Origin: an uncultured Eubacteriales bacterium
Lineage (GTDB): Bacteria > Bacillota > Clostridia > Oscillospirales > Oscillospiraceae
Assembly (NCBI GenBank): GCA_900546615.1
Contig: URDJ01000037.1
Coordinates: forward strand, 1-26,463
Length of the DNA stretch: 26,463 bases
Direction of reading: 5' to 3'
The position numbers were made by a program, and so were the translations under genes. Within the stretch, counting starts at the first letter, position 1, and the number at the start of each line of letters is the position of its first letter. Below the pieces are notes generated by a model, which saw nothing but the letters and a program-made list of their open reading frames with translations, did not search any database and was not told where the DNA came from. Shown piece by piece: positions 3,077 through 26,463 of this stretch.

Positions 3077-3087
3077 TGCAGCACCCC

Positions 3088-5274
3088 CTATTCATTCGAG
3101 ATGAGGCGCGTATAGGCCCCGCCAAGCGCGTACAGTTCCTCGTGCGTACCGCGCTCCACCACCTTGCCGTGGTCGAGCACGATTATCTCGTCGCAGTCCC
3201 TTATCGTCGAGAGACGGTGCGCCACCACTATGCAGGTGATGCCCCTGTCCTTTATCGACTTCACCACCTCGTACTCCGTCTTCGCGTCCAGCGCACTCGT
3301 CGCCTCGTCCAGAATGATTATCGTCGGGTCCTGCGCCAGCACCCTCGCTATCTCCATGCGCTGCCGCTGTCCGCCCGAGAAATCCTTGCCGCCCTCGGCT
3401 ATCTTATAATTGTATCCGCCGTCGCGCTGCATGATATCCGCGTGCAGGCTCGCGTCCCGCGCCGCAAGGATCATCTCGAAGTCCTCTATCGAGCTGTCCC
3501 ACATCTTTATGTTGTTAGCTATAGTGTCCTCGAACAGTATTATGTCCTGATCCACCACAGCCAGCGAACCCGTGAAGACGCTCCGGTCTATCTCCCTTAT
3601 CGGCTTGCCGTCAAACAGTATTTCCCCGCTCCAGGGCTGGTAGAGGCCCGAGATGAGCTTCGAGAGCGTTGACTTGCCGCAGCCCGAGCCGCCTACGAAG
3701 GCCACCCGGCTGCCCGGCTTCAGCTCGAGGTCAAAGTGCTCTATGAGCGGTGCGCCCAGCCTCGAGTAGCCAAAAGTGACGTCCCGCATGACCACGCTGC
3801 CCGAGAGCTTGTCGTACTCCACGTCGTCCTCCAGCTCCGTCTCCGTGTCGTACACCACGTCCTCGGGGTACTGCATGACGTCCTCTACACGCTCCATCTG
3901 CGTGCGCATCTCCTGTATCGTCTGTCCAGCCGACACCAGCGTCATGGCCGGTGAGCTGAAGCTGCTAAGCAGCCCCTGGAAGGCCAGGATCATGCCCGCC
4001 GTGAACTCGCCGCGTATGGTCAGCCACACGCCAGCCATCATCACCGCGCTGTTGGTTATCGTCGAGACCAGCGTGGGCAGCGCGCCCAGATACTTGTCGA
4101 GCTTCTCATAGCGCACCTTCTGCGTGTTCACACTCGCCTGATAGCCCGCCCATTTCTCAAAAAAGCCGTTCTCGGCGCCGCTCGACTTTATCGTCTCAAT
4201 CATCTCTATGCCCGCGACCGTCGCGCCCGCCAGCTTGCCCGAGTCTCGCAGCTGCACCCGCGTGATGTTGATGCGCTTCTTCGAGATGAGCCGCGACAGC
4301 GAGAGATTTATCACGATCGACGCCACGCCAATGAGCGTCAGCAAAACGCTGTACCTGAACATCACGACAAGGTAGAACAGCATCAGCGCCGCGTTTATCG
4401 CCAGCGGCGCAAACACGTTCACCATCGTGCCCGCTATCGAGGCGTTCGCATTCTGCCTCTGCTGGATGTCGCCCGCCATGCGCTGAGAGAAAAAGTCCAT
4501 GGGCAGCCTCAGCACCTTCCACATGAAAGAGGTGCTGCCCACAACGGCCAGCTTGCCGTTTATCCTCATGCTGTACACGGCCTTGATCCACTCGACCACC
4601 AGCCTCACCGCACCGAAAAGGATGAGCGCCAGAGTGAAGCCGCCCAGCCAGTCCGCATTCTCACCCGTCAGCAGCCGGTCAAGGAAGATATGCGAGAAAA
4701 CATTATATATGATGCCGATGACCGACGCGATGAAGGTCGTCAGCAGCATGAACACCACCGCAGGACCCGCCCCGCTCAGCCGTCTGCCCGCGAACTCGAG
4801 CACCGACTTCGGCTTGCCGCCCGGCTCGAATCCCTCGCCTGGCTCGAACATCAGGCAGATGCCGGTGAACGATTTGTCAAAAATTTCCATCGAGACGGCA
4901 TAGCTGCCCTTGGCCGGATCGTTCAGCATGGCCTTGTTGCCCTTGAATCCGTCCAGCACGACAAAGTGGTTAAAATTCCAATGTATGATGCAGGGGAACT
5001 TCCCCTTTTCCTTCAGCGTGGCCGGCTCATAGCGGTATCCCTTGGCGACCAAACCGTAACTTCTGGCCGCCTTGAGTACGTTCTTCGCGTTTGAGCCGTC
5101 CCTTGAAACGCCGCAGTCCGCGCGCACCTGCTCCAGCGGTACCCATTTCCCATAGTACGCCAGCACCATCGCCAGACTCGCCGCCCCGCACTCGAGCGCC
5201 TCCATCTGCATGATCACCGGCACCTTGACATAGCCCTCGCTCACGGGCTGCTTCACCTTTATGTTCTGTCCCAT
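3088..5274 (-). CDS. NHLP/NHLM-type export ABC transporter, C39 peptidase/permease/ATPase
   Basis: This 728-residue exporter subunit is predicted to cut leader peptides and pump the product out. The N-terminal C39 peptidase domain (about 15-150) keeps the whole catalytic set: Cys29 in EALECGAAS, His103 in WNFNHFVVLDGF, Asp119 in LNDPAKG, and oxyanion Gln23. The membrane domain spans about 180-460. The ATPase follows with Walker A GGSGCGKST, signature FSGGQRQR, Walker B IIILDEATSALD and H-loop VAHRLS. I start it at ATG 5274 (MGQNIKVK), with GAGG just upstream overlapping the preceding stop. An in-frame start at 5310 would overlap the upstream gene without need. It matches the TIGR03796-like subunit of NHLM systems. 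C39 enzymes usually cut after Gly-Gly or Gly-Ala, and no such precursor was found in the window. Confidence 0.9.
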   Translation of the reverse strand: MGQNIKVKQPVSEGYVKVPVIMQMEALECGAASLAMVLAYYGKWVPLEQVRADCGVSRDGSNAKNVLKAARSYGLVAKGYRYEPATLKEKGKFPCIIHWNFNHFVVLDGFKGNKAMLNDPAKGSYAVSMEIFDKSFTGICLMFEPGEGFEPGGKPKSVLEFAGRRLSGAGPAVVFMLLTTFIASVIGIIYNVFSHIFLDRLLTGENADWLGGFTLALILFGAVRLVVEWIKAVYSMRINGKLAVVGSTSFMWKVLRLPMDFFSQRMAGDIQQRQNANASIAGTMVNVFAPLAINAALMLFYLVVMFRYSVLLTLIGVASIVINLSLSRLISKKRINITRVQLRDSGKLAGATVAGIEMIETIKSSGAENGFFEKWAGYQASVNTQKVRYEKLDKYLGALPTLVSTITNSAVMMAGVWLTIRGEFTAGMILAFQGLLSSFSSPAMTLVSAGQTIQEMRTQMERVEDVMQYPEDVVYDTETELEDDVEYDKLSGSVVMRDVTFGYSRLGAPLIEHFDLELKPGSRVAFVGGSGCGKSTLSKLISGLYQPWSGEILFDGKPIREIDRSVFTGSLAVVDQDIILFEDTIANNIKMWDSSIEDFEMILAARDASLHADIMQRDGGYNYKIAEGGKDFSGGQRQRMEIARVLAQDPTIIILDEATSALDAKTEYEVVKSIKDRGITCIVVAHRLSTIRDCDEIIVLDHGKVVERGTHEELYALGGAYTRLISNE

Positions 5275-5281
5275 GGCCGCC

Positions 5282-5707
5282 TCAATTCCAGAGGAAGGAC
5301 GCAGGCGCAATGCTCTCGATGACTATCTCAGCCTCGTACACGCCGTCCGCCATGCTCCCGTTCAGCTCGGATACGCAGACATGTCTCCCGGCCTCGAAGC
5401 CGCGCGTGGAAACGCCTGTTATCTCGAACTCCTGTCCGCCCGCACGCACGCTCATGCCGATCTGCACCTCCGCCGACAGGCTGCTGTCATAAACACAGGC
5501 GGTCTCCCCCGCCTCGCTCACCACCAGCGCAGGTACCGTGGTCTCCAGCCGGCCGAACACCCCCCACACGCAGGCACCGATGAGCAGCACGACCACTGCC
5601 GCCAGAACTATCCATACTCCGGGCGAAGAGACCTTCACATAGTCATTGAGCGCCTCAGGAGACGACACCCGGTCGATGCTTTTCTGTCTGAACAGTTTAT
5701 TATTCAT
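5282..5707 (-). CDS. Short HlyD-like secretion protein of the NHLP-type exporter
   Basis: This 141-residue protein has a short cytoplasmic N-terminus (MNNKLFRQKSIDRVSSPEALNDYVK), one membrane helix at about 29-50 (WIVLAAVVVLLIGACVWGVFG) and an external beta-rich domain of about 90 residues. The N-terminal phrase RQKSIDRVSSPEALNDY and the gene order resemble the NHLM system secretion protein (TIGR03794-like). That protein is a membrane-fusion adaptor expected to be longer and to carry a coiled-coil hairpin and lipoyl-like halves. Here the hairpin is missing and only one beta domain remains, perhaps because a Gram-positive cell has no outer membrane to bridge. I chose ATG 5707 (AGGA six bases upstream) over 5749. 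It is the first gene of the exporter operon. Confidence 0.75.
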   Translation of the reverse strand: MNNKLFRQKSIDRVSSPEALNDYVKVSSPGVWIVLAAVVVLLIGACVWGVFGRLETTVPALVVSEAGETACVYDSSLSAEVQIGMSVRAGGQEFEITGVSTRGFEAGRHVCVSELNGSMADGVYEAEIVIESIAPASFLWN

Positions 5708-5777
5708 TTTATTCCTGCTCCCATGCCTTAAAAATCTCAGCTCACACAATCAAACACGACCTGTTATAATCTTTGAT

Positions 5778-5806
5778 ATTATACCATGCGTCCATCTGCC
5801 GCGCAA
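5778..5806 (-). promoter_or_regulatory. Sigma-A type promoter for the exporter operon
   Basis: On the minus strand TTGCGC (5806-5801) is followed after 17 bases by TATAAT (5783-5778). This places transcription start near 5771, about 65 bases before the ATG at 5707. It is divergent from the response-regulator promoter at 5919-5947. The exporter thus appears to use the housekeeping sigma factor rather than the element found before the ECF sigma gene. Confidence 0.5.
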
Positions 5807-5918
5807 GAATATTATATTCCAGCCGCATCCCTCCTCCCCCTCTGCGAGGCCGACGTAAGGCCGGGCATGATGAAGCCGCAATTTACATTTTCTTCTATCC
5901 ATAAGGTGCAAGAAAAAA

Positions 5919-5947
5919 TTGTGAGTTCGGGCAGTATCTGCTATAAT
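5919..5947 (+). promoter_or_regulatory. Extended -10 sigma-A promoter for the sugar-sensing operon
   Basis: TTGTGA (5919-5924), 17 bases, then TATAAT (5942-5947) with TG at 5939-5940, forming an extended -10. Transcription would start near 5954, about 30 bases before the GTG start at 5984. This rules against in-frame starts further upstream (for example at 5786), because they would place the promoter inside the coding region. Confidence 0.7.
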
Positions 5948-5983
5948 GTTGCCAAGGCTTGTTATGGAAGGACGGTGCCGCCT

Positions 5984-7267
5984 GTGAAACACAAGACCTT
6001 TTACACTGTCGTGGTCGCGGACGACGAGGACGAGCTGCGTGAGGCTGTTTGCAGCATGATCCCGTGGGAGGACTGCGGCTTCCAGCTGGTTGGCAGCGCC
6101 AGCAACGGACTCGATGCCCTTCAGCTCGTCGAGAAGCTCGAGCCCGACCTGCTGCTCACGGACATCCGCATGCCCTTCATTTCCGGCATAGAACTCGCCC
6201 GGCAGGTGCGCGAGGTCCGGCCCGCCACGAACATTGCCTTTCTGAGCGGCTTCGACGATTTCGAGTACGCCCAGCAGGCGATACAATACAACATTATCAG
6301 TTATATGCTCAAGCCCCTGACCGTGGAGGGCCTGGGCAATGAATTGCGGATAATACGGCAGAAGATAGACGCGCAGTTTGCCATGTTCCGCCAGGCCCCT
6401 CCGCGGGCAGAAGGCCCGGATCTGCGCGCCGCCATGCTCATGCCCCTCGTGCTCGACGACTTCGTCGACCCCGAGGGAGACTCCCATTCCGAGGCCTACG
6501 CCCGGCAGTGCGGCCTCCTGCGCGAAAAAAGCGACCGGCCCTTCTACACCGTCATGGTCTCCACCCTGTTCGGCGAGGACGGCACGAACCGAACCGCGCC
6601 CTCCTTCGTCGCCTCCGTAGACAGGCTGGCCTCCAAGTACCTGCGCAGCGTCAGCTTCTTCGCCTCCGGCAAGGTCATAACCGTCCTGCTCGGCTCGCCC
6701 TCGGACTTCGACGAGTACCTGCACATCCTTGCCGACGAGCTGCCGCAGATGGCCGACCGCGTACTCGGCCGCCGCTGCCGCATAGGCGTGAGCCGCTCCG
6801 TCCGCAGCCTCGGCGAGCTGCACGGCGCCTACCGCGAGGCCATGGAGGCGCTCCGCCAGGGCGACCGCTCCGAGAGCGGCGCGCAGTTCATAAGCGATCT
6901 CGCGCCCGCCGTCAGGGGCGGCGAGCTGCTATGCCGCCGCGCCCTCGAGGCCATCGACCAGAACTACATGGACCCCGACCTCTCCCTGGTCTCCCTGAGC
7001 GGCATGCTCGACGTCAGCCCCAACCACCTGAGCGCCTGCATCAAAAAATACGCCGGCGAGACCTTCATAAACATCCTCATCCGCAAGCGCATGGAAGCCG
7101 CAAGGGAGCTGCTCAGTTCCTCCACGCTCAGGATACAGGACGTGTCCCTGCGCTGCGGCTACACCGACCAGCATTACTTCTCCTACTGCTTCAAAAAATA
7201 CTGCGGAGAGTCACCCAACGCCCTGCGGCGCAGACTGGAGACCCAAAAGGCAGGTGGCGTCTCTTGA
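5984..7267 (+). CDS. YesN-like response regulator (REC plus AraC-type DNA-binding domain)
   Basis: This 427-residue cytoplasmic regulator should be phosphorylated by the kinase encoded next to it and then switch on sugar genes. The receiver domain (1-125) has the acidic pair Asp13/Asp14, the phosphoacceptor Asp60 in LLLTDIRMP and the conserved lysine in YMLKPL. A linker of about 190 residues follows. The C-terminus (about 325-425) holds an AraC-type double helix-turn-helix (LSGMLDVSPNHLSACIKKYAGETF, then IQDVSLRCGYTDQHYFSYCFKKYCGESP). I chose GTG 5984, preceded by GGAAGG and by a good promoter. Its stop overlaps the kinase start (TTGA), so production is coupled. The mgl-galK operon starting about 2.9 kb downstream is its most likely target, by context. 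Confidence 0.92.
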   Translation: MKHKTFYTVVVADDEDELREAVCSMIPWEDCGFQLVGSASNGLDALQLVEKLEPDLLLTDIRMPFISGIELARQVREVRPATNIAFLSGFDDFEYAQQAIQYNIISYMLKPLTVEGLGNELRIIRQKIDAQFAMFRQAPPRAEGPDLRAAMLMPLVLDDFVDPEGDSHSEAYARQCGLLREKSDRPFYTVMVSTLFGEDGTNRTAPSFVASVDRLASKYLRSVSFFASGKVITVLLGSPSDFDEYLHILADELPQMADRVLGRRCRIGVSRSVRSLGELHGAYREAMEALRQGDRSESGAQFISDLAPAVRGGELLCRRALEAIDQNYMDPDLSLVSLSGMLDVSPNHLSACIKKYAGETFINILIRKRMEAARELLSSSTLRIQDVSLRCGYTDQHYFSYCFKKYCGESPNALRRRLETQKAGGVS

Positions 7268-8982
7268 AAGGCACGGCTCCGCGCAGCCAGCTGCGCATCA
7301 CCACCATCCTCGTCGCCATGGTCGTGGGCATCGTGGCCGTCATCCTAGTCTGCTGCATCCTGCTCTTTCTGAGCCGCTACCGCAGCGCCATGGTCCAGAG
7401 CGCCCGCACCAGCAGCGCTCAGGCCGTCAGCCAGGTCTCCAACACCGTCGGCAGCTACCTCTCCGACATGGACCAGGCCATGGAGCTGGTCGAGCAGTCC
7501 GTCTCCAGCTCAGGCGAGAGCCGGGACGAGCTGCTCTCCGTCTTCCTCAGATACAGGCCGGACGTCGTGGCCGTGACCAGCTACTCACCGGACGGGGAGC
7601 TGCTGGACTGCTGGGCTACAGGCCGGGAGCCCAGGGACGACATATTCAGGAACCTCTCCTTCGACTACGGGAAGGCCCGCGATTCAGGGGACGCCTACCT
7701 CACCGCGCCGCACGTCGAGACCATCTTCGAGGGCTACTATCCCTGGGTGGTCACGATGACGTCGAGGCTCGATGCCGGGGGCGAGGCCGCCTGGCTCTCG
7801 CTGGATCTGAGCTTCTCCGGCATCTCGAGCTATATCAACAACGTCAGTATCGGACAGAGGGGCTACTGCTTCCTCATGGACGAGGACGGCAACATCATTT
7901 ATCACCCCCAGCAGCAGCTGCTCTATGCCGGCCTCAAGTCCGAGGACACCGAGGCCCTCGCCGCGCTCAGCGACGGCGCCTGGGCCGACGACACCGTCAT
8001 CTACAGCCTCAACAGCGTCGGCGACAGCGGCTGGCGCGTCGTCGGCGTCAGCTACGTGGACGAGCTTGTGAACAGGAACGTCAACGAGATGATACGGCTT
8101 TCCTTCTGGCTTGCCGCCGTGGTGCTCTGCGTCGCGCTGCTCACGAGCCTTCTGCTCTCGAAGCTGCTGGGCCGGCCCCTGCGCGGCCTCGCTGACGCCA
8201 TGGAGAGCTTCGAGTCCGACGCCGACCACTTCTCCTATCGCCCCGTCGGCGGCACGAGGGAGGTCCAGGAGCTCTCCGACTCCTTCGAGCACATGGTCCT
8301 GCGCATCCAGCAGCTCATGTCCACCGTCCGCGAGGAGGAAATAAACCTCCGCAAGACGGAGCTGAAGGCCCTGCAGGCCCAGATAAACCCCCACTTCCTC
8401 TACAACACCCTCGACTCCATCGCCTGGATGTGCGAACAGGGCCGAAACGCCGACGCCGTCAAAATGGTACACGCCCTCGCGAGGCTTTTCCGCATCAGCA
8501 TCAGCCGCGGGCACGAGCTTATACCAATCGCCAAGGAGCTCGAGCACGCCGAGAGCTACCTTCAAATCCAGATGTACCGCTACAAAAACCAGTTCACCTA
8601 CGCCTTCGACGCAGACCCCGACTGCCTCGGCTTCTACTGCAACAAGATAACCCTCCAGCCCATCATAGAAAACTCCATAAACCACGGCCTTGACCTCATG
8701 GTCGAGGAAGGCCGCATCGACGTGCAGGTGCGCATGGACGGGGACGACATCGTCTTCTCCGTGCGCGACAACGGCGTCGGCATGAGCGAGGAGCAGATAG
8801 AGGCCATCATGCACAGCGAACAGACCGACCGCACAGGCATAGGTATCAGAAACGTCAACGACAGGCTCAGGATATACTTCGGCAAAAACTACGGCCTGCA
8901 CATCACGAGCGAGCCGGACGTCGGCACCTGCGTCGAGATCAGGATGCCGAAGATAAGGGAGGGCGAGTATGAGACGAAATAA
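7264..8982 (+). CDS. YesM-like sensor histidine kinase with extracellular Cache-like domain
   Basis: This 572-residue membrane kinase has a first helix at about 12-36, an extracellular region of about 245 residues with Cache-like features (YYPWVVTMTS, then GYCFLMDEDGNIIYHP), a second helix at about 282-304, and a HAMP linker. The cytoplasmic kinase belongs to the His_kinase/YesM-LytS class: phosphoacceptor His at about 377 in QINPHFLYNTLDS, N-box IIENSINHGL and G-boxes DNGVGM and GIGIRNV. I start it at TTG 7264, which overlaps the regulator's stop codon by four bases (TTGA) and follows AGGCAGGTGG. Longer in-frame starts lie inside the regulator gene and are shadows. The next gene encodes a sugar-binding lipoprotein that may present ligand to this sensor. 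Confidence 0.92.
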   Translation: MKGTAPRSQLRITTILVAMVVGIVAVILVCCILLFLSRYRSAMVQSARTSSAQAVSQVSNTVGSYLSDMDQAMELVEQSVSSSGESRDELLSVFLRYRPDVVAVTSYSPDGELLDCWATGREPRDDIFRNLSFDYGKARDSGDAYLTAPHVETIFEGYYPWVVTMTSRLDAGGEAAWLSLDLSFSGISSYINNVSIGQRGYCFLMDEDGNIIYHPQQQLLYAGLKSEDTEALAALSDGAWADDTVIYSLNSVGDSGWRVVGVSYVDELVNRNVNEMIRLSFWLAAVVLCVALLTSLLLSKLLGRPLRGLADAMESFESDADHFSYRPVGGTREVQELSDSFEHMVLRIQQLMSTVREEEINLRKTELKALQAQINPHFLYNTLDSIAWMCEQGRNADAVKMVHALARLFRISISRGHELIPIAKELEHAESYLQIQMYRYKNQFTYAFDADPDCLGFYCNKITLQPIIENSINHGLDLMVEEGRIDVQVRMDGDDIVFSVRDNGVGMSEEQIEAIMHSEQTDRTGIGIRNVNDRLRIYFGKNYGLHITSEPDVGTCVEIRMPKIREGEYETK

Positions 8983-9940
8983 ATGCGGCCTGACGTGCAT
9001 CCTGCTGGCACTCTTCCTGCTGACGGGCTGCGCCGCGGAAAACCCCTCCACCGACCAGTATCACGTCGCGCTCGTTGCCAAGTCCACGCAGACCGAATTC
9101 TGGCTCTCCGTCTTCGCCGGAGCCGAGGCCGCTGCCACCGAGTACAACGTGAAGCTCAGCATCACCGGCCCCGAGACCGAGGAGGACTACGAGACCCAGA
9201 ACCGAATGATCGCCGACGCCGTCGAGGACGGCGCCGACGCACTCGTCTTCTCGGCAATCGACTACGAAAACAACGCCTCCGCCATAGACGACGCCGCAAA
9301 GGCCGGCGTCAGGATAGTCGCCATCGACAGCTCCGTCGCCTCCGACATGGTCAGCACCTACATCGGCACGGACAATTTCGCCGCCGGCCAGATGGCCGCT
9401 CAGGCCGCCCTCGACAGGGTTGAAGGACCGCTCGTCGTCGGCATGGTGAACTATGACATCAGCAGCGCCAACGGGCAGGAGCGCGAGCGCGGCGCTACAG
9501 AGCTGTTCCTGCAGAGCGGCAGAGCTGAGATCGCCGCCGTCATAAACACCCTCGCAGAGGCGGGCGCCGCCCAGGATGACACCGTGCAAATGCTCGAAGA
9601 CCACCCGGAGATAAACGTGCTGCTCGCCTTCAACGAGCCTACCAGCGTCGGCGCCGCCTGCGCCGTCGGAGAACTGGGACTCTCCGAGGAGGTCTTCCTC
9701 GTGGGCTTCGACTCCAACGTCGCCACCGTCGACGGCCTGCAGGACGGCAGCGTGGACGCCCTCATCGTCCAGAACCCCTACGCCATGGGTTACCTCGGCG
9801 TCGAAAGCGCATGCAGGCTGCTCTCCGGTCAGGAGGACGAATTGGAAAAAACTGTTGACACCTCGACCCTCACTGTCGACCGCGAAAACATGTTTTCCAT
9901 CGACGGTCAAAAAGCTCTGTTTGCCTTTGAGCAGAGATAA
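8969..9940 (+). CDS. Sugar-binding lipoprotein, probable sensor subunit of the YesM/YesN system
   Basis: This 323-residue protein begins with a lipoprotein signal (lipobox LTGC, lipidated Cys near residue 21), followed by a periplasmic-binding-protein fold of the RbsB/type-1 sugar family (ALVAKSTQTEFWLSVFAGAEAAA near the start, GADALVFSAIDYEN, ALVFS and DSNVATVDGLQDGSVDALIVQNPYAMGY further on). Domain order is canonical, unlike mglB downstream. Its ATG lies inside the kinase gene (14-base overlap) and no permease or ATPase directly follows. It therefore looks like the third member of a sensing unit rather than a transporter subunit. The XylFII-LytS-YesN xylose system of Clostridium beijerinckii is a known precedent for this arrangement. 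The ligand is unknown. Galactose or a galactoside is the best guess from context. Confidence 0.85.
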   Translation: MRRNKCGLTCILLALFLLTGCAAENPSTDQYHVALVAKSTQTEFWLSVFAGAEAAATEYNVKLSITGPETEEDYETQNRMIADAVEDGADALVFSAIDYENNASAIDDAAKAGVRIVAIDSSVASDMVSTYIGTDNFAAGQMAAQAALDRVEGPLVVGMVNYDISSANGQERERGATELFLQSGRAEIAAVINTLAEAGAAQDDTVQMLEDHPEINVLLAFNEPTSVGAACAVGELGLSEEVFLVGFDSNVATVDGLQDGSVDALIVQNPYAMGYLGVESACRLLSGQEDELEKTVDTSTLTVDRENMFSIDGQKALFAFEQR

Positions 9941-10128: not shown

Positions 10129-11436
10129 ATGAAAAAGTTTCTTGCGCTGCTTCTGGCTCTGACCATGGTATTCTGCCTGGCCGCCTGCGGCAGCACTGAC
10201 AGCACCCCGACCGACGCCCCCGACGGCGGCGACGGCACTGTGACCGATACCCCCGATGACGGCGGCGACGGCACCGTTGCCAACAAGGATAAGCCCCTTG
10301 TCTGGTTCAACCGCCAGCCCTCCAACAGCACCACCGGTGAGCTGGATATGGCGGCCCTGACCTTCAACGAGAACACCTACTACGTCGGCTTCGACGCCAA
10401 CCAGGGCGCCGAGCTGCAGGGCACGATGATCCTTGACTACATCAAGGCCAACATCGAGGGCCTTGACCGCAACAACGACGGCATCATCGGCTACGTCCTG
10501 GCCGTCGGCGACATCGGCCACAACGACTCCATTGCCCGTACCCGCGGCGTGCGCAGCGCGCTCGGCACCGCCGTCGAGGTCGACGGCGTCATCGACAGCA
10601 CCCCTGTCGGCACCAACATCGACGGCACCTCCCCCTACGTCAAGGACGGCACCCTCGAGATAGACGGCACCACCTACATCGTGCGTGAGCTGGCTTCTCA
10701 GGAGATGAAGAACTCCGCCGGCGCCACCTGGGACGCCGCCACCGCCGGCAACGCCATCGGCACCTGGTCCTCCTCCTTCGGCGACCAGATCGACATCGTT
10801 GCCTCCAACAACGACGGCATGGGCATGTCCATGTTCCTCGCCTGGTCCAAGGCTGAGGGCGTGCCCACCTTCGGCTACGACGCCAACTCCGACGCTGTCG
10901 CCGCTATCGCCGAGGGCTACGGCGGCACCATCAGCCAGCACGCCGACGTGCAGGCCTACCTGACCCTCCGCGTTCTGCGCAACGCCCTTGACGGCGTGGA
11001 CATCGACACCGGCATCGGCACCGCCGACGACGCGGGCAACGCGCTCTCCGAGGACGTCTTCTACTACGACGAGGCCTCCCGCAGCTACTACGCCCTGAAC
11101 GTCGCCGTCACCGCCGAGAACTACGAGAGCTTCCTGGATTCCACCGTCACCTATGAGCCGGTCTCCAACCAGCTCGACGCGACGGCCCACCCGACCAAGA
11201 ACGTCTGGCTGAACATCTACAACTCCGCCGACAACTTCCTGGGCTCCACCTATCAGCCGCTGCTCCAGAAGTACGACGACCTGCTGAACCTGAACGTTGA
11301 GTACATAGCCGGCGACGGCCAGACCGAGTCCAACATCACCAACCGTCTGGGCAACCCCGAGCTGTACGACGCCTTCGCCATCAACATGGTGAAGACCGAC
11401 AACGCCGCCTCCTACACCGGCATTCTCAGCCAGTGA
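10129..11436 (+). CDS. mglB: Galactose/methyl-galactoside ABC transporter binding lipoprotein, circularly permuted
   Basis: This 435-residue lipoprotein (lipobox LAAC, Cys20) should capture galactose or glucose for the importer encoded next. After a Gly/Asp/Thr/Pro-rich linker (22-53), the fold begins at KPLVWFNRQPS (55-65), which corresponds to VPVVFFNKEPS well inside E. coli MglB. Then follow YYVGFDANQGAELQG (84-98), the calcium-loop-like DRNNDG (113-118), a conserved Arg at 137, SNNDGMGM and PTFGYDAN. The segment that should be N-terminal, with NIYNSADNFL and AFAINMV matching TIYKYDDNFM and ALAINLV, instead lies at 355-435. The module order is therefore rotated, as reported for Treponema pallidum MglB-2 (Tp0684). 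I start at ATG 10129, with AAAGAGG upstream. Sugar contacts appear retained, so it is probably functional. Confidence 0.9.
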   Translation: MKKFLALLLALTMVFCLAACGSTDSTPTDAPDGGDGTVTDTPDDGGDGTVANKDKPLVWFNRQPSNSTTGELDMAALTFNENTYYVGFDANQGAELQGTMILDYIKANIEGLDRNNDGIIGYVLAVGDIGHNDSIARTRGVRSALGTAVEVDGVIDSTPVGTNIDGTSPYVKDGTLEIDGTTYIVRELASQEMKNSAGATWDAATAGNAIGTWSSSFGDQIDIVASNNDGMGMSMFLAWSKAEGVPTFGYDANSDAVAAIAEGYGGTISQHADVQAYLTLRVLRNALDGVDIDTGIGTADDAGNALSEDVFYYDEASRSYYALNVAVTAENYESFLDSTVTYEPVSNQLDATAHPTKNVWLNIYNSADNFLGSTYQPLLQKYDDLLNLNVEYIAGDGQTESNITNRLGNPELYDAFAINMVKTDNAASYTGILSQ

Positions 11437-11564: not shown

Positions 11565-13073
11565 ATGGCAGATGCGAAAAACGACATCGTCCTTTCAATA
11601 CGCGGTATGAGCAAGTCCTTCGGACGCAACCGGGTGCTTGACCATATCAATCTGGACGTGAAGCGCGGAACTGTCATGGGGCTTATGGGCGAGAACGGCG
11701 CCGGAAAGTCGACGATGATGAAGTGTCTTTTCGGCACCTACCAGAAGGACGAGGGGAAGATCTTCCTAAACGGCAAGGAAATAAGCTTTTCCGGGCCGAA
11801 GGACGCGCTGGAAAACGGTATCGCCATGGTGCACCAGGAACTCAACCAGTGCCTTGAGCGGAGTGTGACCGACAACCTGTTCCTCGGCCGCTACCCGACG
11901 AACGGCGCGGGCGTCGTGGACGAGGGCGGTATGAAGAAGAAGGCTTCGGAGCTTTTCCGCAAGCTGGGCATGACCGTGAACCTCAGCCAGCCCATGCGGA
12001 ACATGTCCGTTTCCCAGCGGCAGATGTGCGAGATAGCCAAGGCCATCTCCTACAACTCGCAGGTCATAGTGCTCGACGAGCCGACCTCCTCCCTGACCGT
12101 ACAGGAGGTTGACAAGCTCTTTGAGATGATGCGGATGCTGCGCGACCAGGGCATCTCGCTCATCTATATCTCTCACAAGATGGACGAGATATTCGAGATC
12201 TGCGACGAGATCTCCGTGCTCCGAGACGGCAAGCTGGTCATGACCAAGCCCGCGGCGGAGACCAATATGGGCGAGCTGATAACCGCCATGGTCGGCCGCT
12301 CGCTCGAGAGCCGCTTCCCGCCCGTGGACAACACCCCGGGCGACACCATCCTCTCCGTGCAGCACCTTTCCACGAAGTACGCGCCGTATTTGCAGGATGT
12401 GAGCTTTGACGTCAGGGAGGGCGAGATATTCGGCCTCTACGGCCTCGTCGGCGCGGGCAGGACTGAGCTTCTGGAGACGATCTTCGGCGTGCGCACCAGA
12501 GCCGCCGGGCGCGTTTACTTCAAGAACAGGCTCATGAACTTCACGAGCGCCAAAGAAGCCATCGAGCACGGCTTCGCTATGATAACCGAGGAGCGCAAAG
12601 CCAACGGCCTGTTCCTCAAATGCGACCTCACCTTCAACACGACCATCGCCAACCTCAGGCAGTACAAGGCCGGCCCCGCGCTCTCCACCCCTAAAATGGT
12701 GAAGGCAACCAACAAGGAGATCAAGACCATGCGCACCAAGTGCATGGGTCCGGACGATATGATCACAAGCCTCTCCGGAGGCAACCAGCAGAAGGTCATC
12801 TTCGGCAAGTGGCTCGAGCGCGAACCCCAGGTCTTCATGATGGACGAGCCGACGAGGGGCATAGACGTCGGCGCGAAGTATGAGATATACGAGCTCATCA
12901 TCAAGATGGCAAAGGCAGGCAAGACCATCATAGTCGTCTCCTCCGAGATGCCCGAGATCCTCGGCATCACGAACCGCATAGGCGTCATGTCCAACGGACA
13001 CCTTTCCGGCATCGTGAACACGAGGGAAACGGACCAGGAGGAACTTCTGAGACTCAGCGCAAAATACCTGTAA
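11565..13073 (+). CDS. mglA: Galactose/methyl-galactoside ABC transporter, ATP-binding protein
   Basis: This 502-residue cytoplasmic ATPase drives sugar import. It has the two tandem ABC domains typical of MglA/RbsA/XylG. Domain 1 (about 5-245) has Walker A GENGAGKST, a divergent signature (MSVSQRQMCEIAKA) and Walker B VIVLDEPTSSL. Domain 2 (about 260-500) lacks a classical Walker A lysine loop (GLVGAGRTE) but keeps the signature LSGGNQQKV and Walker B VFMMDEPTRGIDVGAK. This asymmetry is normal for sugar-type ATPases. The start at 11565 follows GGGAG by 8 bases. It lies 128 bases after mglB, past two hairpins, and 17 bases before mglC. Confidence 0.93.
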   Translation: MADAKNDIVLSIRGMSKSFGRNRVLDHINLDVKRGTVMGLMGENGAGKSTMMKCLFGTYQKDEGKIFLNGKEISFSGPKDALENGIAMVHQELNQCLERSVTDNLFLGRYPTNGAGVVDEGGMKKKASELFRKLGMTVNLSQPMRNMSVSQRQMCEIAKAISYNSQVIVLDEPTSSLTVQEVDKLFEMMRMLRDQGISLIYISHKMDEIFEICDEISVLRDGKLVMTKPAAETNMGELITAMVGRSLESRFPPVDNTPGDTILSVQHLSTKYAPYLQDVSFDVREGEIFGLYGLVGAGRTELLETIFGVRTRAAGRVYFKNRLMNFTSAKEAIEHGFAMITEERKANGLFLKCDLTFNTTIANLRQYKAGPALSTPKMVKATNKEIKTMRTKCMGPDDMITSLSGGNQQKVIFGKWLEREPQVFMMDEPTRGIDVGAKYEIYELIIKMAKAGKTIIVVSSEMPEILGITNRIGVMSNGHLSGIVNTRETDQEELLRLSAKYL

Positions 13074-13090: not shown

Positions 13091-14743
13091 ATGGTAGCAG
13101 AAAACACAAAGATCCTGACAGCTGAGCAGGAAGCTCAGCTGCTGCAGCCGATCGACGAGCATGTGGGCGCCATACAGGAGAAGATAAACGCCCTGCGTCT
13201 CGACGGCACGGACAAGGTTCTGGATATTCAGAACAGCTTAGAGAACCTCAAACGCGACCGCATCTACACCGCGGAGGAAAAGCAGAAGCGCGCCGCCGAG
13301 CTCAAAGCTGAGCTCGCCAAGGCCAAGGAGGTCGAGGCAAAAAACAAGGCCGAGGTCGCAAAGCTCGTAGCCGAGGCCGAGGAATACCTCAAAGCCAACT
13401 ACGGCGCATATTATCAGGCTGTGGTCGCCAGCTGCGCCGAGGAGAATGTTAAAGCTCAGGAGAGGTACAAGGAGGCCGTCGAGCAGCTGAACCGCGAGCA
13501 CCAGGAGACCGTGGCCAAGCTCTCCGACCAGCAGGAGCTGAAGGACGAGAAGTACGTCCACAAAAACCGCCTGTTCGACGCGAAGATGTCCCTGCTCAAG
13601 GAAAAGCAGAGCATAAAGGACAGGCGCCACGCCGCCTTCGACCACAAGTACCACCTCATAGACCTGCTGCGCATGTCCAAGTTCAGCTTCGGCGAAAGCA
13701 TGGCCCAGAAAGCGGAGAATTACCGCTACACCTTCAACCGCCGCGACTTCTTCCTGCGCAACGGCCTGTACATAGCGATAATCATCATCTTCATCGGCCT
13801 GTGCATCGTGACGCCCATCATAAAGGGCGTGCCGCTGCTCACTGTGAACAACATCCTGAACATCCTGTCCCAGGCCTCGCCGCGCATGTTCCTGGCCCTG
13901 GGCGTCGCGGGCCTCATACTGCTCGCCGGCACGGACCTGTCTATAGGCCGTATGGTCGGCATGGGCATGACCGCCGCGACCATCATCATGCACAACGGCC
14001 CCAACACCGGCTCCGTGTTCGGGAAAGTCTTTGACTTTACCGGGATGCCTATACTGGGCCGTGTGTTCTTTGCGCTCGTCGTCTGCATCGTGCTGTGCAC
14101 CATCTTCACCACGATCGCCGGCTTCTTCACCGCCAAGTTCAAGATGCACCCCTTCATCTCGACCATGGCCAACATGCTCGTCATCTTCGGCCTCGTCACC
14201 TACTCGACGAAGGGCGTCTCCTTCGGCGGCATCGACGGCACCATCCCCGCCATGATAATCCCCAAACTGGGCAAGTTCCCGACCATCATACTCTGGGCGG
14301 CGGCGGCCGTTATCGTAGTGTGGTTCATCTGGAACAAGACCACCTTCGGCAAGAACCTCTACGCTGTCGGCGGCAACTCTGAGGCTGCCTCCGTCTCCGG
14401 TATCTCTGTCTTCAAGGTCACCGTCGGCGCCTTCATCATGGCCGGCGTGCTCTACGGCTTCGGCTCCTGGCTCGAGTGCATCCGCATGATAGGCTCCGGC
14501 TCCGCGGCCTACGGCCAGGGCTGGGAGATGGACGCCATCGCAGCCTGCGTCGTCGGCGGCATCTCGTTCACCGGCGGTATCGGCAAGATCTCCGGCGTCG
14601 TCGTCGGCGTCTTCATCTTCACCGCGCTGACCTACTCGCTGACCACGCTGGGCATCGATACCAACCTGCAGTTCGTCTTCTCCGGTATCATCATCCTCGT
14701 CGCGGTCATGCTGGACTGCCTGAAGTACGTCCAGAAGAAGTAA
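13091..14743 (+). CDS. mglC: Galactose/methyl-galactoside ABC permease with long helical N-terminal domain
   Basis: This 550-residue protein combines a typical sugar permease (from about residue 222: FFLRNGLYIAIIIIFIGLCIV, then LALGVAGLILLAGTDLSIGRMVGMG and GGISFTGGIGKISGVVVGVF) with an extra N-terminal region of about 220 residues. The extension is highly charged, rich in Ala, Glu and Lys, and reads as long helices likely to form coiled coil (TAEEKQKRAAELKAELAKAK is one example). It has no signal peptide, so it should lie in the cytoplasm next to the ATPase. E. coli MglC is 336 residues and has no such domain. AGGAG precedes the ATG at 13091, and the reading frame is continuous, so this is a genuine fusion. 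Its function is unknown; regulation or scaffolding of the ATPase is possible. Confidence 0.9.
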   Translation: MVAENTKILTAEQEAQLLQPIDEHVGAIQEKINALRLDGTDKVLDIQNSLENLKRDRIYTAEEKQKRAAELKAELAKAKEVEAKNKAEVAKLVAEAEEYLKANYGAYYQAVVASCAEENVKAQERYKEAVEQLNREHQETVAKLSDQQELKDEKYVHKNRLFDAKMSLLKEKQSIKDRRHAAFDHKYHLIDLLRMSKFSFGESMAQKAENYRYTFNRRDFFLRNGLYIAIIIIFIGLCIVTPIIKGVPLLTVNNILNILSQASPRMFLALGVAGLILLAGTDLSIGRMVGMGMTAATIIMHNGPNTGSVFGKVFDFTGMPILGRVFFALVVCIVLCTIFTTIAGFFTAKFKMHPFISTMANMLVIFGLVTYSTKGVSFGGIDGTIPAMIIPKLGKFPTIILWAAAAVIVVWFIWNKTTFGKNLYAVGGNSEAASVSGISVFKVTVGAFIMAGVLYGFGSWLECIRMIGSGSAAYGQGWEMDAIAACVVGGISFTGGIGKISGVVVGVFIFTALTYSLTTLGIDTNLQFVFSGIIILVAVMLDCLKYVQKK

Positions 14744-14832: not shown

Positions 14833-16125
14833 ATGAAATTGCAGAAACTGTCCGAGATCCGGCGCGCGCTGGAGGCCGGCGAGCTGGACGGGCGGCTGGA
14901 ACAGCTCAGATACGGCGAGACCGAACACGCACGGGCGAAGGTCCGGAACGTGCTCGAGGGCTTTGAGCGCTGCTTCGGCGCAGACGGCGGGCGCGAGGCC
15001 GCGCTCTGCTCCGCGCCCGGGCGCACCGAGCTCTGCGGCAACCACACCGACCACCAGCACGGCCGCTGCCTCGCCGGGGCCGTGGACCTGGACTTCCTCG
15101 CCTGCGCCTCTCCCAACGGCCTTAACACCATTCGCTTCCAGTCCGAGGGCTGGCCAATGGTGGAGGTCGGGCTGGACGAGCTCCTGCCCAAGACCACGGA
15201 GCGGGAGAGCACCGCGGCGCTGGTGCGCGGCATGGCCGGGCTCGTGAAGGAGCGCGGCTTCGCGGTCTCGGGCTTCGACGTCTACGCCGTGTCCGAGGTG
15301 CTGCCCGGCTCCGGGCTGTCCTCCTCGGCGGCCTGCGAGGTGCTGCTCGGCGTCATCGAAAACCGGCTCTTCTGCGGCGACTCGCTCGACGCCGTTGCGA
15401 TCGCCCAGCTAGGCCAGCGCGCGGAGAACGTCTACTTCGGCAAGCCCAGCGGGCTGCTCGACCAGACCGCCTCCTCCGTCGGCGGCGCCGTGGCCATAGA
15501 CTTTGCCGACCCCGGCAACCCCTCCGTAAGCTCCCTGCGCGTCGACCTGGAGGAGCTGGGCTACGCCATGTGCATCATAGATTCCGGCGCGAGCCACGCG
15601 GCGCTGACCGGCGAATACGCCTCCATCCCCGAGGAGATGGGCGCGGTCGCGGAGTTTTTCGGCAAAAAGGTGCTCCGCGAGGTGGACGAGGCCGCGCTGC
15701 TGCGTGCCCTGCCCGAGCTGCGCAAATCCGCCGGAGACAGGGCCGTGCTGCGCGCCCTGCACTTCTTCGCGGACGACAGGCGCGCCGCCGAGGAAGCCGA
15801 TGCGCTCGAGCGCGGCGACATGGACGCCTTTCTCGCCCTCGTTCGCGAGTCCGGGCGCTCCTCCTGGGAGCTGCTGCAGAACATCACCCCGACCGGAGCC
15901 TCGCGCGAGCAGGCCATGGCCGTAGCGCTCACCGTGGCCGGGCGCGCCCTCGGCGGGCGAGGCGCCTGCCGCGTCCACGGCGGCGGCTTCGCCGGCACCA
16001 TTCAGGCCTTCGTGCCCCTCGATATGCTCGAGGGCTTCCAGCGTGAGGTCGAGGCCGTGCTCGGCAAGGGCAGCTGCAAGGCCCTCTCCATCCGCCCCGT
16101 CGGCGGCACCGTGCTCTGGCCCTGA
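14833..16125 (+). CDS. galK: Galactokinase (GHMP kinase family)
   Basis: This 430-residue cytoplasmic enzyme is predicted to phosphorylate galactose at C1, the first Leloir step. The galactokinase signature is at about 61-77 as APGRTELCGNHTDHQHG (E. coli-type: GRVNLIGEHTDYNGG). The ATP loop is at about 155-165 (LPGSGLSSSAAC). The catalytic Asp lies in SGLLDQTAS (about residue 210), and the C-terminal GHMP motif is HGGGFAGTIQAF. The Glu-to-Asn change in GNHTD and a 60-residue N-terminal extension set it apart from E. coli GalK. Similar sequences in Clostridia are usually annotated as galactokinase, and the position after mglBAC supports that. AGAAAGAGG precedes the ATG. No galT or galE is present in the window. 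Confidence 0.87.
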   Translation: MKLQKLSEIRRALEAGELDGRLEQLRYGETEHARAKVRNVLEGFERCFGADGGREAALCSAPGRTELCGNHTDHQHGRCLAGAVDLDFLACASPNGLNTIRFQSEGWPMVEVGLDELLPKTTERESTAALVRGMAGLVKERGFAVSGFDVYAVSEVLPGSGLSSSAACEVLLGVIENRLFCGDSLDAVAIAQLGQRAENVYFGKPSGLLDQTASSVGGAVAIDFADPGNPSVSSLRVDLEELGYAMCIIDSGASHAALTGEYASIPEEMGAVAEFFGKKVLREVDEAALLRALPELRKSAGDRAVLRALHFFADDRRAAEEADALERGDMDAFLALVRESGRSSWELLQNITPTGASREQAMAVALTVAGRALGGRGACRVHGGGFAGTIQAFVPLDMLEGFQREVEAVLGKGSCKALSIRPVGGTVLWP

Positions 16126-16251: not shown

Positions 16252-16263
16252 GGAGTGACGGGG

Positions 16264-16638
16264 ATGGCGGAGATACGAAGATTGCCGGATGCGGAGCTGG
16301 CGGTGATGCAGGCGCTTTGGGCGCTGAACGGGCCGGGCACGCGGGCGCAGATAGGCTCCGGGCTGGGCGAGGGGCACAGCATGGCGCCGACGACGCTGCT
16401 GACGCTGCTCTCGCGCCTGGCGGAGCGGGGCTTTGTGGCCGTGGACAGGTCGGAGCGGAGCGCGCTTTACACGCCGCTCGTGAGCCGGGAGGAGTATTTG
16501 GCGGCGCAGAGCCGGAGTTTCATCGACAAGCTCTGCGGCGGCAAAGTCTCGGTGCTGGCGGCGGCACTGTGCGACAGCGGCCTCAGCCGCGAGGAGATCG
16601 CCGAGCTGCGCGGGCTTCTCGAAAGGGATGAGCTGTGA
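16264..16638 (+). CDS. blaI: BlaI/MecI-family transcriptional repressor
   Basis: This 124-residue DNA-binding repressor has a winged helix at about 1-75 (LPDAELAVMQALWAL, then MAPTTLLTLLSRLAERGFVAVDRSERSALYTPLVSREEY). The C-terminal dimerisation helices follow (SVLAAALCDSGLSREEIAELRGLLERDEL). I start it at ATG 16264, eight bases after AAGGAG. A GTG at 16255 overlaps that site and is less likely. Two operators sit over its promoter, so it should repress itself and the coupled peptidase gene. In the classical system the partner's protease action inactivates the repressor. There is no beta-lactamase gene nearby, so its regulon is unknown. Confidence 0.92.
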   Translation: MAEIRRLPDAELAVMQALWALNGPGTRAQIGSGLGEGHSMAPTTLLTLLSRLAERGFVAVDRSERSALYTPLVSREEYLAAQSRSFIDKLCGGKVSVLAAALCDSGLSREEIAELRGLLERDEL

Positions 16639-18068
16639 TGGAGGCCTTTTTCGGACGCTTTTTCATCTCGCTCGTGCTGGCGGCGATCATCACCGCCGGC
16701 TGCTGGGAGCGCATGCGGCAGGAGAACTCCCCGGGCCGCGCCGGGAAGGAGGTCTACAGGCCCTATCCCATGATGGGGCCGCTCGCCATCGTACTGCTGC
16801 TGTGCGGGGCGGGCATCGCGCTCTTTTACGGCCCCGAGCGGGCGCTGGATGAGCTGCTCGGCATGTGGTTCAACGCCTTTGCCGCAGCCTGCGTCTACTA
16901 CCTCGTCCTCACGCCGCTGCTGCCCTGGCTGCGCGAGAGGGTGAGCGCCTGGGCCTGCGCCGTGCTCTGGCTGCTGCCGAACATGCTGTATCTCGTTCAG
17001 ATAAACAGGGTAGTGCAGGGCAGGCCGCTTTTCGTCATAGTGGCCCCGGACGGGCTGGCCTTCGTGCTGCTGGGCCTGTGGGTGGGCGGCTTCTGCCTCA
17101 TAATGCTCTGGAAATGCGCCGAGCACCTCGCCTTCCGCCGGAGGATACTGCGCGCTGCCGCGCCCGCAGAGGCCTGGGAACAGGCGCTCTTTCAGGAAGA
17201 ACTGGCGAGGGTGAATTTCAGGGGCCGGAAACCGCTGCTGCTGCGCTCGGACGCCGTGCAGACGCCGCTCTCCATAGGGCTTTCGCGCCGCTCGACGCGG
17301 ATAGTTCTGCCCGGGCGCGGCTATACCGGGGACGAGCTGAGGCTCGTGCTGCGGCATGAGATCGTGCACATCTGCCACGATGACGCCTCCACCAAGCTCA
17401 GCCTCGTGAGCACCGCCGCCATGTGCTGGCCGAACCCGCTGGTCTGGTTCGCCATGCGCAGGAGCGCCGAGGACATCGAGCTCTGCTGCGACGAGGCCGT
17501 CACCTTCGGCGCGGGCGCTGACGAGCGGCGGCGCTACGCCGAACTCATTCTAAGCTCCGCCGGGGACGAGCGCGGCTTCACCTCCTGCCTCTCGGCGAAG
17601 GCGAACTCGCTGCGCTACCGGCTCAGGAACGTCATGCAGCCGGGCATGAAGGGCTCCGGCGTGCTCGCCATAGGCATCGCGACCTTCCTGCTGTTCATGT
17701 GCGTCGGGCAGGTCGCACTCGCCTACGGCGGTGGAAGCGGGGCGGAGGTGCTTTTCAGGGGCGACGACCCGGCGTTCTTTGTGCTCGAGGACGCGCCCGA
17801 TGCGGACGTCTCGGGCCTGAACGCCTACCTTGCCTCCCTCGAGCTGCTCGAGCTGTCAGGCGACTACGAGTACGACGCGGATGAGGGGAATTACGAGGGC
17901 CTGCTCTACGACGGGCCGCGAGGGCGGCTCTTTGTCGGCATCCACGACGAGGCAGTGGAGTGCATACAGCCCGTGAGCGAGGGCAAGTCCCGGCTGGAAG
18001 TCTACTACGTCCCCGGCGGCGTGGACTGGGCGAAAATCGAGAGCCTTATGCCGGCTCAGGATGCGTGA
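16638..18068 (+). CDS. BlaR1/MecR1-like M56-family membrane peptidase with short sensor tail
   Basis: This 476-residue membrane protein has about five N-terminal helices, then an M56 peptidase domain with the zinc motif HEIVH (about 239-243, in VLRHEIVHICHDD) and the downstream acidic motif AEDIELCCDEAV. Another helix follows at about 342-362. Only about 114 residues remain outside the membrane, and they are acidic with no serine-active-site motifs of a penicillin-binding domain. BlaR1 and MecR1 carry a sensor of about 250 residues there. It probably senses something other than covalent beta-lactam binding, such as cell-wall stress. The ATG overlaps the repressor stop (TGATG). A GTG three bases earlier is equally possible. 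Confidence 0.87.
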   Translation: MEAFFGRFFISLVLAAIITAGCWERMRQENSPGRAGKEVYRPYPMMGPLAIVLLLCGAGIALFYGPERALDELLGMWFNAFAAACVYYLVLTPLLPWLRERVSAWACAVLWLLPNMLYLVQINRVVQGRPLFVIVAPDGLAFVLLGLWVGGFCLIMLWKCAEHLAFRRRILRAAAPAEAWEQALFQEELARVNFRGRKPLLLRSDAVQTPLSIGLSRRSTRIVLPGRGYTGDELRLVLRHEIVHICHDDASTKLSLVSTAAMCWPNPLVWFAMRRSAEDIELCCDEAVTFGAGADERRRYAELILSSAGDERGFTSCLSAKANSLRYRLRNVMQPGMKGSGVLAIGIATFLLFMCVGQVALAYGGGSGAEVLFRGDDPAFFVLEDAPDADVSGLNAYLASLELLELSGDYEYDADEGNYEGLLYDGPRGRLFVGIHDEAVECIQPVSEGKSRLEVYYVPGGVDWAKIESLMPAQDA

Positions 18069-18159: not shown

Positions 18160-18189
18160 CCAAAAAAGCTTGACGTATCAGGCACGTCA
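18160..18189 (-). terminator. Weak intrinsic terminator of the beta-galactosidase gene
   Basis: On the minus strand TGACGT (18189-18184) pairs with ACGTCA (18176-18171) around a 7-base loop, then AGCTTTTTT follows. The hairpin overlaps the gene's own stop codon. The stem is short, so termination may be partial, but the T-run and position support the call. Confidence 0.5.
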
Positions 18190-20100: not shown

Positions 20101-20129
20101 CGTATCGCCCCTTTCCACGTACTGGCTAC

Positions 20130-26442: not shown

Positions 26443-26463
26443 CTGTCTCTTATACACATCTCC
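26443..26463. other. Nextera transposon mosaic-end adapter (sequencing artefact)
   Basis: Positions 26443-26461 read CTGTCTCTTATACACATCT, the complete 19-base Tn5 mosaic end used in Nextera libraries. The last two bases, CC, are the first two of the read-2 adapter that follows it. Read in reverse this gives the familiar spurious peptide start MCIRDR, and forwards SYTHL. It is not genomic. Confidence 0.97.

Follow-up and report, generated by a model that had tools for sequence, protein, structure and literature searches.

A circularly permuted MglB in a Clostridia importer operon, and relatives with three chain orders

The permuted binding protein and its operon

The window, by which we mean the whole stretch of DNA that was analysed (26,463 nucleotides of contig URDJ01000037.1, from an uncultured Eubacteriales bacterium), carries the following features at the locus of interest, H, C and N being the segments of the binding protein:

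5786..7267, +, response regulator with AraC-type output (start approximate)
7270..8982, +, histidine kinase with dCache_1 and HAMP (start approximate)
8969..9940, +, sensor-type binding lipoprotein in canonical order, AlsB/RbsB-like (PF13407, profile positions 1-258)
10129..11436, +, permuted glucose/galactose-binding lipoprotein (type A, order H-C-N), 435 aa from the ATG (Pfam, match to TpMglB-2, structural model)
10129..10188, +, its lipoprotein signal up to C20, with an LAAC lipobox (sequence)
10291..10464, +, segment H, residues 55-112 (KPLVWFNRQPS...), which lies inside the chain of ordinary MglB but opens the folded protein in this case
10465..11136, +, segment C, residues 113-336, with the calcium loop DRNNDG, the C-lobe and a stretch aligned to the ordinary C-terminal tail (a part placed by alignment with relatives, and not significant on its own)
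11137..11190, +, linker, residues 337-354, between the former C-terminus and the former N-terminal segment
11191..11433, +, segment N, residues 355-435 (PF18610), which corresponds to the first ~80 residues of ordinary MglB and carries two sugar-site residues, D368 and F370
11565..13073, +, 502-aa MglA-type ATPase that belongs to the permuted cassette (664.5 bits with NCBIfam PRK10982, cut-off 828)
13091..14743, +, MglC-type permease, 550 aa (PF02653 at 254-538; NCBIfam PRK09478, 268.1 bits, cut-off 386)
13091..13732, +, helical N-terminal extension of MglC, about residues 1-214, without a Pfam or NCBIfam match
14833..16125, +, galactokinase-like GHMP kinase, 430 aa (Pfam/NCBIfam)

The preliminary description of this DNA had proposed that the binding protein is a circularly permuted MglB, with the boundaries given above and with Treponema pallidum TpMglB-2 (Tp0684) as a precedent, and both proposals were borne out. 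The Pfam domains are rotated: residues 81-289 match PF13407 (profile positions 94-256 of 258) and are followed by PF18610 at 356-426, and the protein is collinear with TpMglB-2 (PDB 5jx2), residues 52-433 aligning to 19-385 with an E value of 4.1e-89, while enteric MglB matches it in two separate stretches only. The MglB equivalog model NF011924 (PRK15395) likewise matches in two stretches, with 87 bits for a cut-off of 420. Rotation of the mature chain raised its best single-domain score against an HMM of canonical MglBs from 55.0 to 71.3 bits and brought no gain with an RbsB-like HMM (24.8). The weak point is the moved segment taken alone, which scores just 3.5 bits with the canonical HMM, the best of 200 shuffles reaching 2.8.

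Strand order in the predicted fold (pLDDT 88.9, pTM 0.88), which had been named as the point to check, agrees with the permutation: the model has the two-lobed Type I MglB-like fold and ends in b-a-b-a-b-a, and the first three strands of the N-lobe lie at the C-terminus of the chain, as in Type Ic / Cluster Bc. A connecting stretch of 61 residues precedes them. Order-dependent structural alignment covered 365 residues with TpMglB-2 (TM 0.77-0.84); with E. coli GGBP (2fvy; TM 0.46-0.49) it paired only positions 1-286 of the model with 78-306 of the chain. Chance resemblance of residues 355-435 to MglB was rejected through the TpMglB-2, HMM and profile-profile comparisons, and the protein is an MglB circular permutant of order H-C-N. 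Compared with MglB of E. coli and Salmonella (GGBP; 2gbp, 3gbp), to which it is homologous in all three segments and with which it has the sugar site and calcium loop in common, it carries the N-terminal ~80 residues at its C-terminus and has insertions in the C-lobe.

For the sugar site we used the ten glucose-binding positions of Table 2 in PMC4990184, whose equivalents here are D368, F370, N61, H131, D133, R137, W201, N228, D251 and Q270. With all ten aligned, nine are identical to E. coli and nine to TpMglB-2 (5jx2, 6bgc, 6bgd), which has Asn in place of D368, an Asp in E. coli as well (D14). By analogy with TpMglB-2, for which this has been shown in print, the protein should close on its sugar.

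TpMglB-2 was solved, and its permutation described, by Brautigam and colleagues; their paper (PMC4990184) also notes the permuted topology in many Gram-positive, largely gut, bacteria and proposes the name Type Ic / Cluster Bc. The gene in the window is a further member of this published family, and its presence in a different phylum, pointed out in the preliminary description, is not new because Gram-positive gut bacteria had already been reported there. Elsewhere in the open-access literature PF18610 appears in just one more paper, within a list of profiles. A homolog at 99% identity was found in Candidatus Scatomorpha pullistercoris, among the best 120 of 7,814 scored relatives.

Binding protein, double ATPase and BPD_transp_2 permease lie in one operon, as in CUT2-type Mgl-like importers. 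MglA and MglC stay below the equivalog cut-offs of NF008215 and NF007014, each still being the best NCBIfam match for its protein. Pfam and NCBIfam also confirmed the complete mglBAC-galK-type operon beside a sensor lipoprotein of canonical order that had been described; kinase, regulator, sensor lipoprotein and galactokinase-like gene distinguish this locus from that of TpMglB-2. The lipoprotein would be the substrate-binding part of a galactose/glucose ABC importer, followed by MglA, MglC and then the galactokinase-like gene, and to judge from the operon and the sugar site its substrate should be galactose or glucose. Control is expected to come from the kinase, response regulator and sensor lipoprotein encoded alongside. 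A GH42 beta-galactosidase (PF02449, E 1e-119) is encoded near the importer on the opposite strand (18187-20118, -).

Elsewhere, the window contains an ECF sigma factor (120-602), two NHLP-type bacteriocin export ABC proteins (875-5749, -), both over their NCBIfam cut-offs and adjoined by a short HlyD-like ORF that matches just the first ~47 of 421 positions, and BlaI/CopY-like repressor and BlaR1-like membrane protein genes (16255-18068), both under NCBIfam cut-offs. Between 20260 and 24605 there is an ABC ATPase whose N-terminal ~200 residues fall outside the ATPase match, and after it an FtsX/MacB-like permease of 1019 aa into which a long coiled coil is inserted. The last letters of the window, cTGTCTCTTATACACATCT (26444-26461), give rise to a spurious minus-strand ORF (MCIRDR...); we take them to be the Nextera transposon adapter, left over at the contig end.

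The permuted cassette and its exchange

The permuted family is patchy, and in a phylum sample it was present in two of 249 genomes, one of them the seed. PF18610 was found in 28 of 250 genomes of one family and in 9 of 180 of another, and in both cases exactly the same genomes hold the MglC extension. In a third group of 179 genomes PF18610 occurs in seven and the extension in nine, six being common to both, and the exceptions led to the unrotated and C-N-H loci treated below. In viral contigs, 83 pattern matches yielded no relatives.

All 86 complete permuted cassettes among the loci first compared (83 of them distinct in the final 250 residues of MglC) have an MglC of 508-568 aa and the same type of MglA, versus an MglC of 327-353 aa, never extended, in all 30 complete canonical cassettes; those with a cut MglC were left out of this count. 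Canonical Mgl cassettes of Clostridia (L150-L159, L205-L224) have the same order of binding protein, MglA and MglC, often with the same kinds of kinase, regulator and sensor alongside, but their binding protein is unrotated, their MglC lacks the extension and their MglA and MglC fall in a separate branch. MglA and MglC of the permuted cassettes form one branch each, Treponema included (support 1.0 each, unrooted trees). On plasmid pTS2 of Treponema saccharophilum, a permuted cassette encodes an MglA 66% identical to that of the window and an extended MglC (562 residues) whose identity is 44% overall and ~24% in the extension alone.

The extension, of ~215 residues, is helical in the predicted structure, with local pLDDT mostly between 84 and 93; the MglC model as a whole has a pLDDT of 71.7, its membrane part being poor, and showed no PDB relatives at E <= 0.001. 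Its position ahead of the first membrane helix, and the basic residues that come after it, make the extension probably cytoplasmic, and our guess is that it contacts MglA or a regulatory protein. Its apparent occurrence as a widespread free protein was discarded: of 235 matches among 802 candidates of limited length, judged on the best 120, nearly all are short, lack a Pfam domain and are probably cut permease genes. An apparent extended MglC in one genome (G837) proved to be an insertion in a PotA-type ATPase, and an apparent permuted gene in another (G734) a plain canonical MglB with a weak PF18610 match.

Permuted and canonical cassettes occur beside recurring neighbours. A set of regulator, kinase, sensor and canonical MglB lies upstream of 12 permuted and 8 canonical cassettes, and a downstream set with canonical MglB accompanies 14 permuted and 8 canonical ones. 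The sensor type of the window goes with 22 permuted cassettes and, by best match, with four canonical ones, one of which (L220) has no canonical MglB assigned next to it. These counts cover loci with a complete kinase gene, and loci overlap in at least one genome. A rapidly built tree of 68 kinases, several of whose long branches were flagged, requires a minimum of seven changes in the permuted/canonical label, six of them forced by well-supported branches. These recurring neighbours and label changes indicate that whole importers have been exchanged repeatedly under the same kind of regulator.

In many Lachnospiraceae loci (L147:5963-6964 and similar) a canonical MglB-type protein is encoded next to the kinase, beside a permuted or a canonical importer, which suggests separate MglBs for sensing and for transport. 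A 252-kb plasmid of Agathobacter rectalis (L226, NZ_CP143948.1) carries a complete permuted importer together with its kinase, its regulator and a gene for a canonical MglB-type protein. Integrase and IS91 genes lie close by; this plasmid is a possible vehicle for cassette exchange.

Chain orders and junctions

The relatives fall into three chain orders: type A (H-C-N; the window, other Clostridia and Treponema), type B (C-N-H) and Cx, in which an unrotated protein accompanies an extended MglC. The loci compared here (L242-L244, L262-L267) come from the class of an Erysipelotrichaceae MAG (L014), L264-L266, from related genomes, being ordinary type A. The Cx loci L242, L243 and L267 combine the permuted type of MglA and an extended MglC (556-557 residues) with a binding protein in ordinary order that nevertheless shares a C-lobe insertion with the permuted family; L242 and L267 are collinear with canonical MglBs, and L243 is a near-copy of L242. 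The type B sample comprises three loci from two genomes. The lipoproteins of L244 and L262 begin with the C-lobe (DGELNY and DGELGY) and finish with N and then H, and HMMER placed each on two offset diagonals against TpMglB-2 (32-342 to 82-384 and 356-408 to 21-72 for L244; 36-315 to 82-382 and 308-368 to 8-71 for L262). L263, in the same genome as L262 and 38% identical to it over 32-370, is a 501-aa type B lipoprotein (L263:5641-7146) with an additional N-terminal region, and the 13 kb covered at this locus include neither an MglA nor an MglC gene.

The junctions differ among the three orders. The calcium loop that joins H to C is present in all 14 type A and all three Cx proteins, in 7 of 9 canonical ones and in neither of two type B proteins, whereas the spacing from N to H is 22 in Cx (3/3) and in canonical proteins (8/9, the ninth being off the pattern), 20 in L262 and 31 in L244. 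The artificial join from C to N, in which the old C-terminal tail and a linker of ~20 residues lead into N, is common to A and B; the resemblance of the linker to a canonical C-tail HMM is not significant, 82 and 100 of 500 shuffles reaching it. Each rotated order lacks one native junction and keeps the other. With the H-C join kept in type A and the N-H join in type B, both are expected in the ancestor common to the two.

Support values were read from unrooted trees; the trees of 83 rows leave out SENS2, the second half of L146, L129 and L130, and the cassette tree was built from 28 selected cassettes and an outgroup. In the combined binding-protein tree, support is 100 for A with B and Cx, 100 for A with B, 99 for A with L244 and 91 for A by itself, so that type B is not a group: (Cx,(L262,(L244,A))). 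A, B and Cx also form one group by the N segment (97) and by the C segment (88). In the MglA plus MglC tree all extended cassettes group together (100), with Cx placed weakly among type A (49, 69); A plus B without Cx is not recovered, in conflict with the binding-protein tree.

The surviving junctions suggest a single fused tandem MglB as the source from which each rotated form was trimmed. In this scheme the ancestor would already have had an MglC with the helical extension before any rotation; two mglB copies would have fused, the C-terminus of one leading into the N-terminal segment of the next, and later trimming would have left H-C-N or C-N-H, sister genes staying unrotated as Cx. That one importer lineage, with its own MglA and extended MglC, holds three natural circular orders of which A and B are alternative trimmings of a single fused tandem is in our judgement evenly balanced in its chances. 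No fused intermediate was seen in the permuted family. In Hungatella hathewayi WAL-18680, a 553-aa protein (L146:4655-6316) consists of a canonical MglB-like part and, continuing in the same frame, a damaged second N-half, a type found in 1 of 250 genomes by one query. It is a partial duplication in an ordinary MglB and was rejected as an ancestor of the permuted family; it does give an example of an N-half becoming duplicated in a related MglB.

Two successive rotations, from the canonical order to C-N-H and then to H-C-N, each with its own duplication and trimming, would fit the branching of type B in the tree and the C-to-N join common to A and B. The second step, however, would have had to rebuild the calcium loop, which is missing from type B, and the loop letters in Treponema and L264 (DRNGDG) are the same as in Cx; conversely, deriving B from A would require the N-H join to be rebuilt. 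We regard the route by two successive rotations as rather unlikely. An ancestor with both joins, that is, a fused tandem MglB, accounts for all three joins.

Partners, anchoring and the source of the moved segment

Whether the rotation alters docking to the permease had been asked in the preliminary description, and the partner does differ. The consistent pairing in complete cassettes and in the two genome families could be read as functional coupling, the rotated protein needing an extended permease for docking. We consider this improbable: the Cx loci pair an extended MglC with an unrotated protein, which means that the extension is not a consequence of rotation, and a cytoplasmic extension, if so placed, would lie on the opposite side from the binding protein and could not meet it. 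It seems slightly less probable still that rotation is an adaptation to lipid anchoring, as suggested in PMC4990184; a lipobox pattern was recognised in 13 of the 14 type A proteins examined, but also in 8 of 9 canonical and all three Cx proteins, and anchoring alone therefore does not track rotation.

As to the moved segment, PMC4990184 reports an identity of 13% and raises, without deciding it, the question of an origin in another gene, that is, capture of a C-terminal segment that converged on the MglB N-lobe. Several of our results are in line with capture. Identity to canonical transport MglB is 17% in the N segment versus 32% in the rest; the segment adds just 3-19 bits to canonical-HMM scores, less than RbsB-like segments do; its profile (A4) matches only TpMglB-2 in the PDB up to E 10; and an AU test (39 of the 83 tree rows, before bridging sequences were added) does not reject an origin outside MglB (p 0.10). 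Against this, the profile of A and B N segments, with bridging sequences, matches canonical MglB N segments with P 97.3 and E 1.9e-11, versus P 9.3 and E 0.0035 for eight RbsB-like N segments. Against six triples of canonical proteins without L246, P ranges from 22 to 97, being just 22 in one of the six. PF18610 also matches weakly the N-terminus of L246, a plain canonical MglB (residues 31-92, E 0.0015), and the unrotated Cx proteins group with A and B by both segments. Capture is accordingly disfavoured, as the least probable of these alternatives, and on the profile comparisons the moved segment is MglB's own, which answers in part how the rotation arose.

Taking the three observed orders, the shared partners and the tree support together, we think it likely that the protein is the H-C-N MglB permutant of what would be a galactose/glucose importer, putatively under its neighbouring regulators, and that A and B were trimmed from a presumed fused tandem MglB. 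On the cassette-wide link and the three circular orders, the open-access literature (subscription journals being outside the scope) gave nothing beyond PMC4990184. The permuted protein's own MglA and extended MglC, the way permuted and canonical importers alternate next to sensor genes of the same kind, the pairing of an extended MglC with an unrotated protein, the second rotation C-N-H and the assignment of the moved segment to MglB itself were not found in print.

Natural circular permutations are usually inferred from two endpoints. Here the same protein exists in three chain orders among relatives, which makes the origin of such rotations testable and, if our reading is true, provides a natural record of the duplication-and-deletion route to circular permutation. 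The cassette-wide link points to an unannotated helical domain on the permease, and shows that gut bacteria which switch between ordinary and permuted sugar importers exchange the entire importer, not the binding protein alone.
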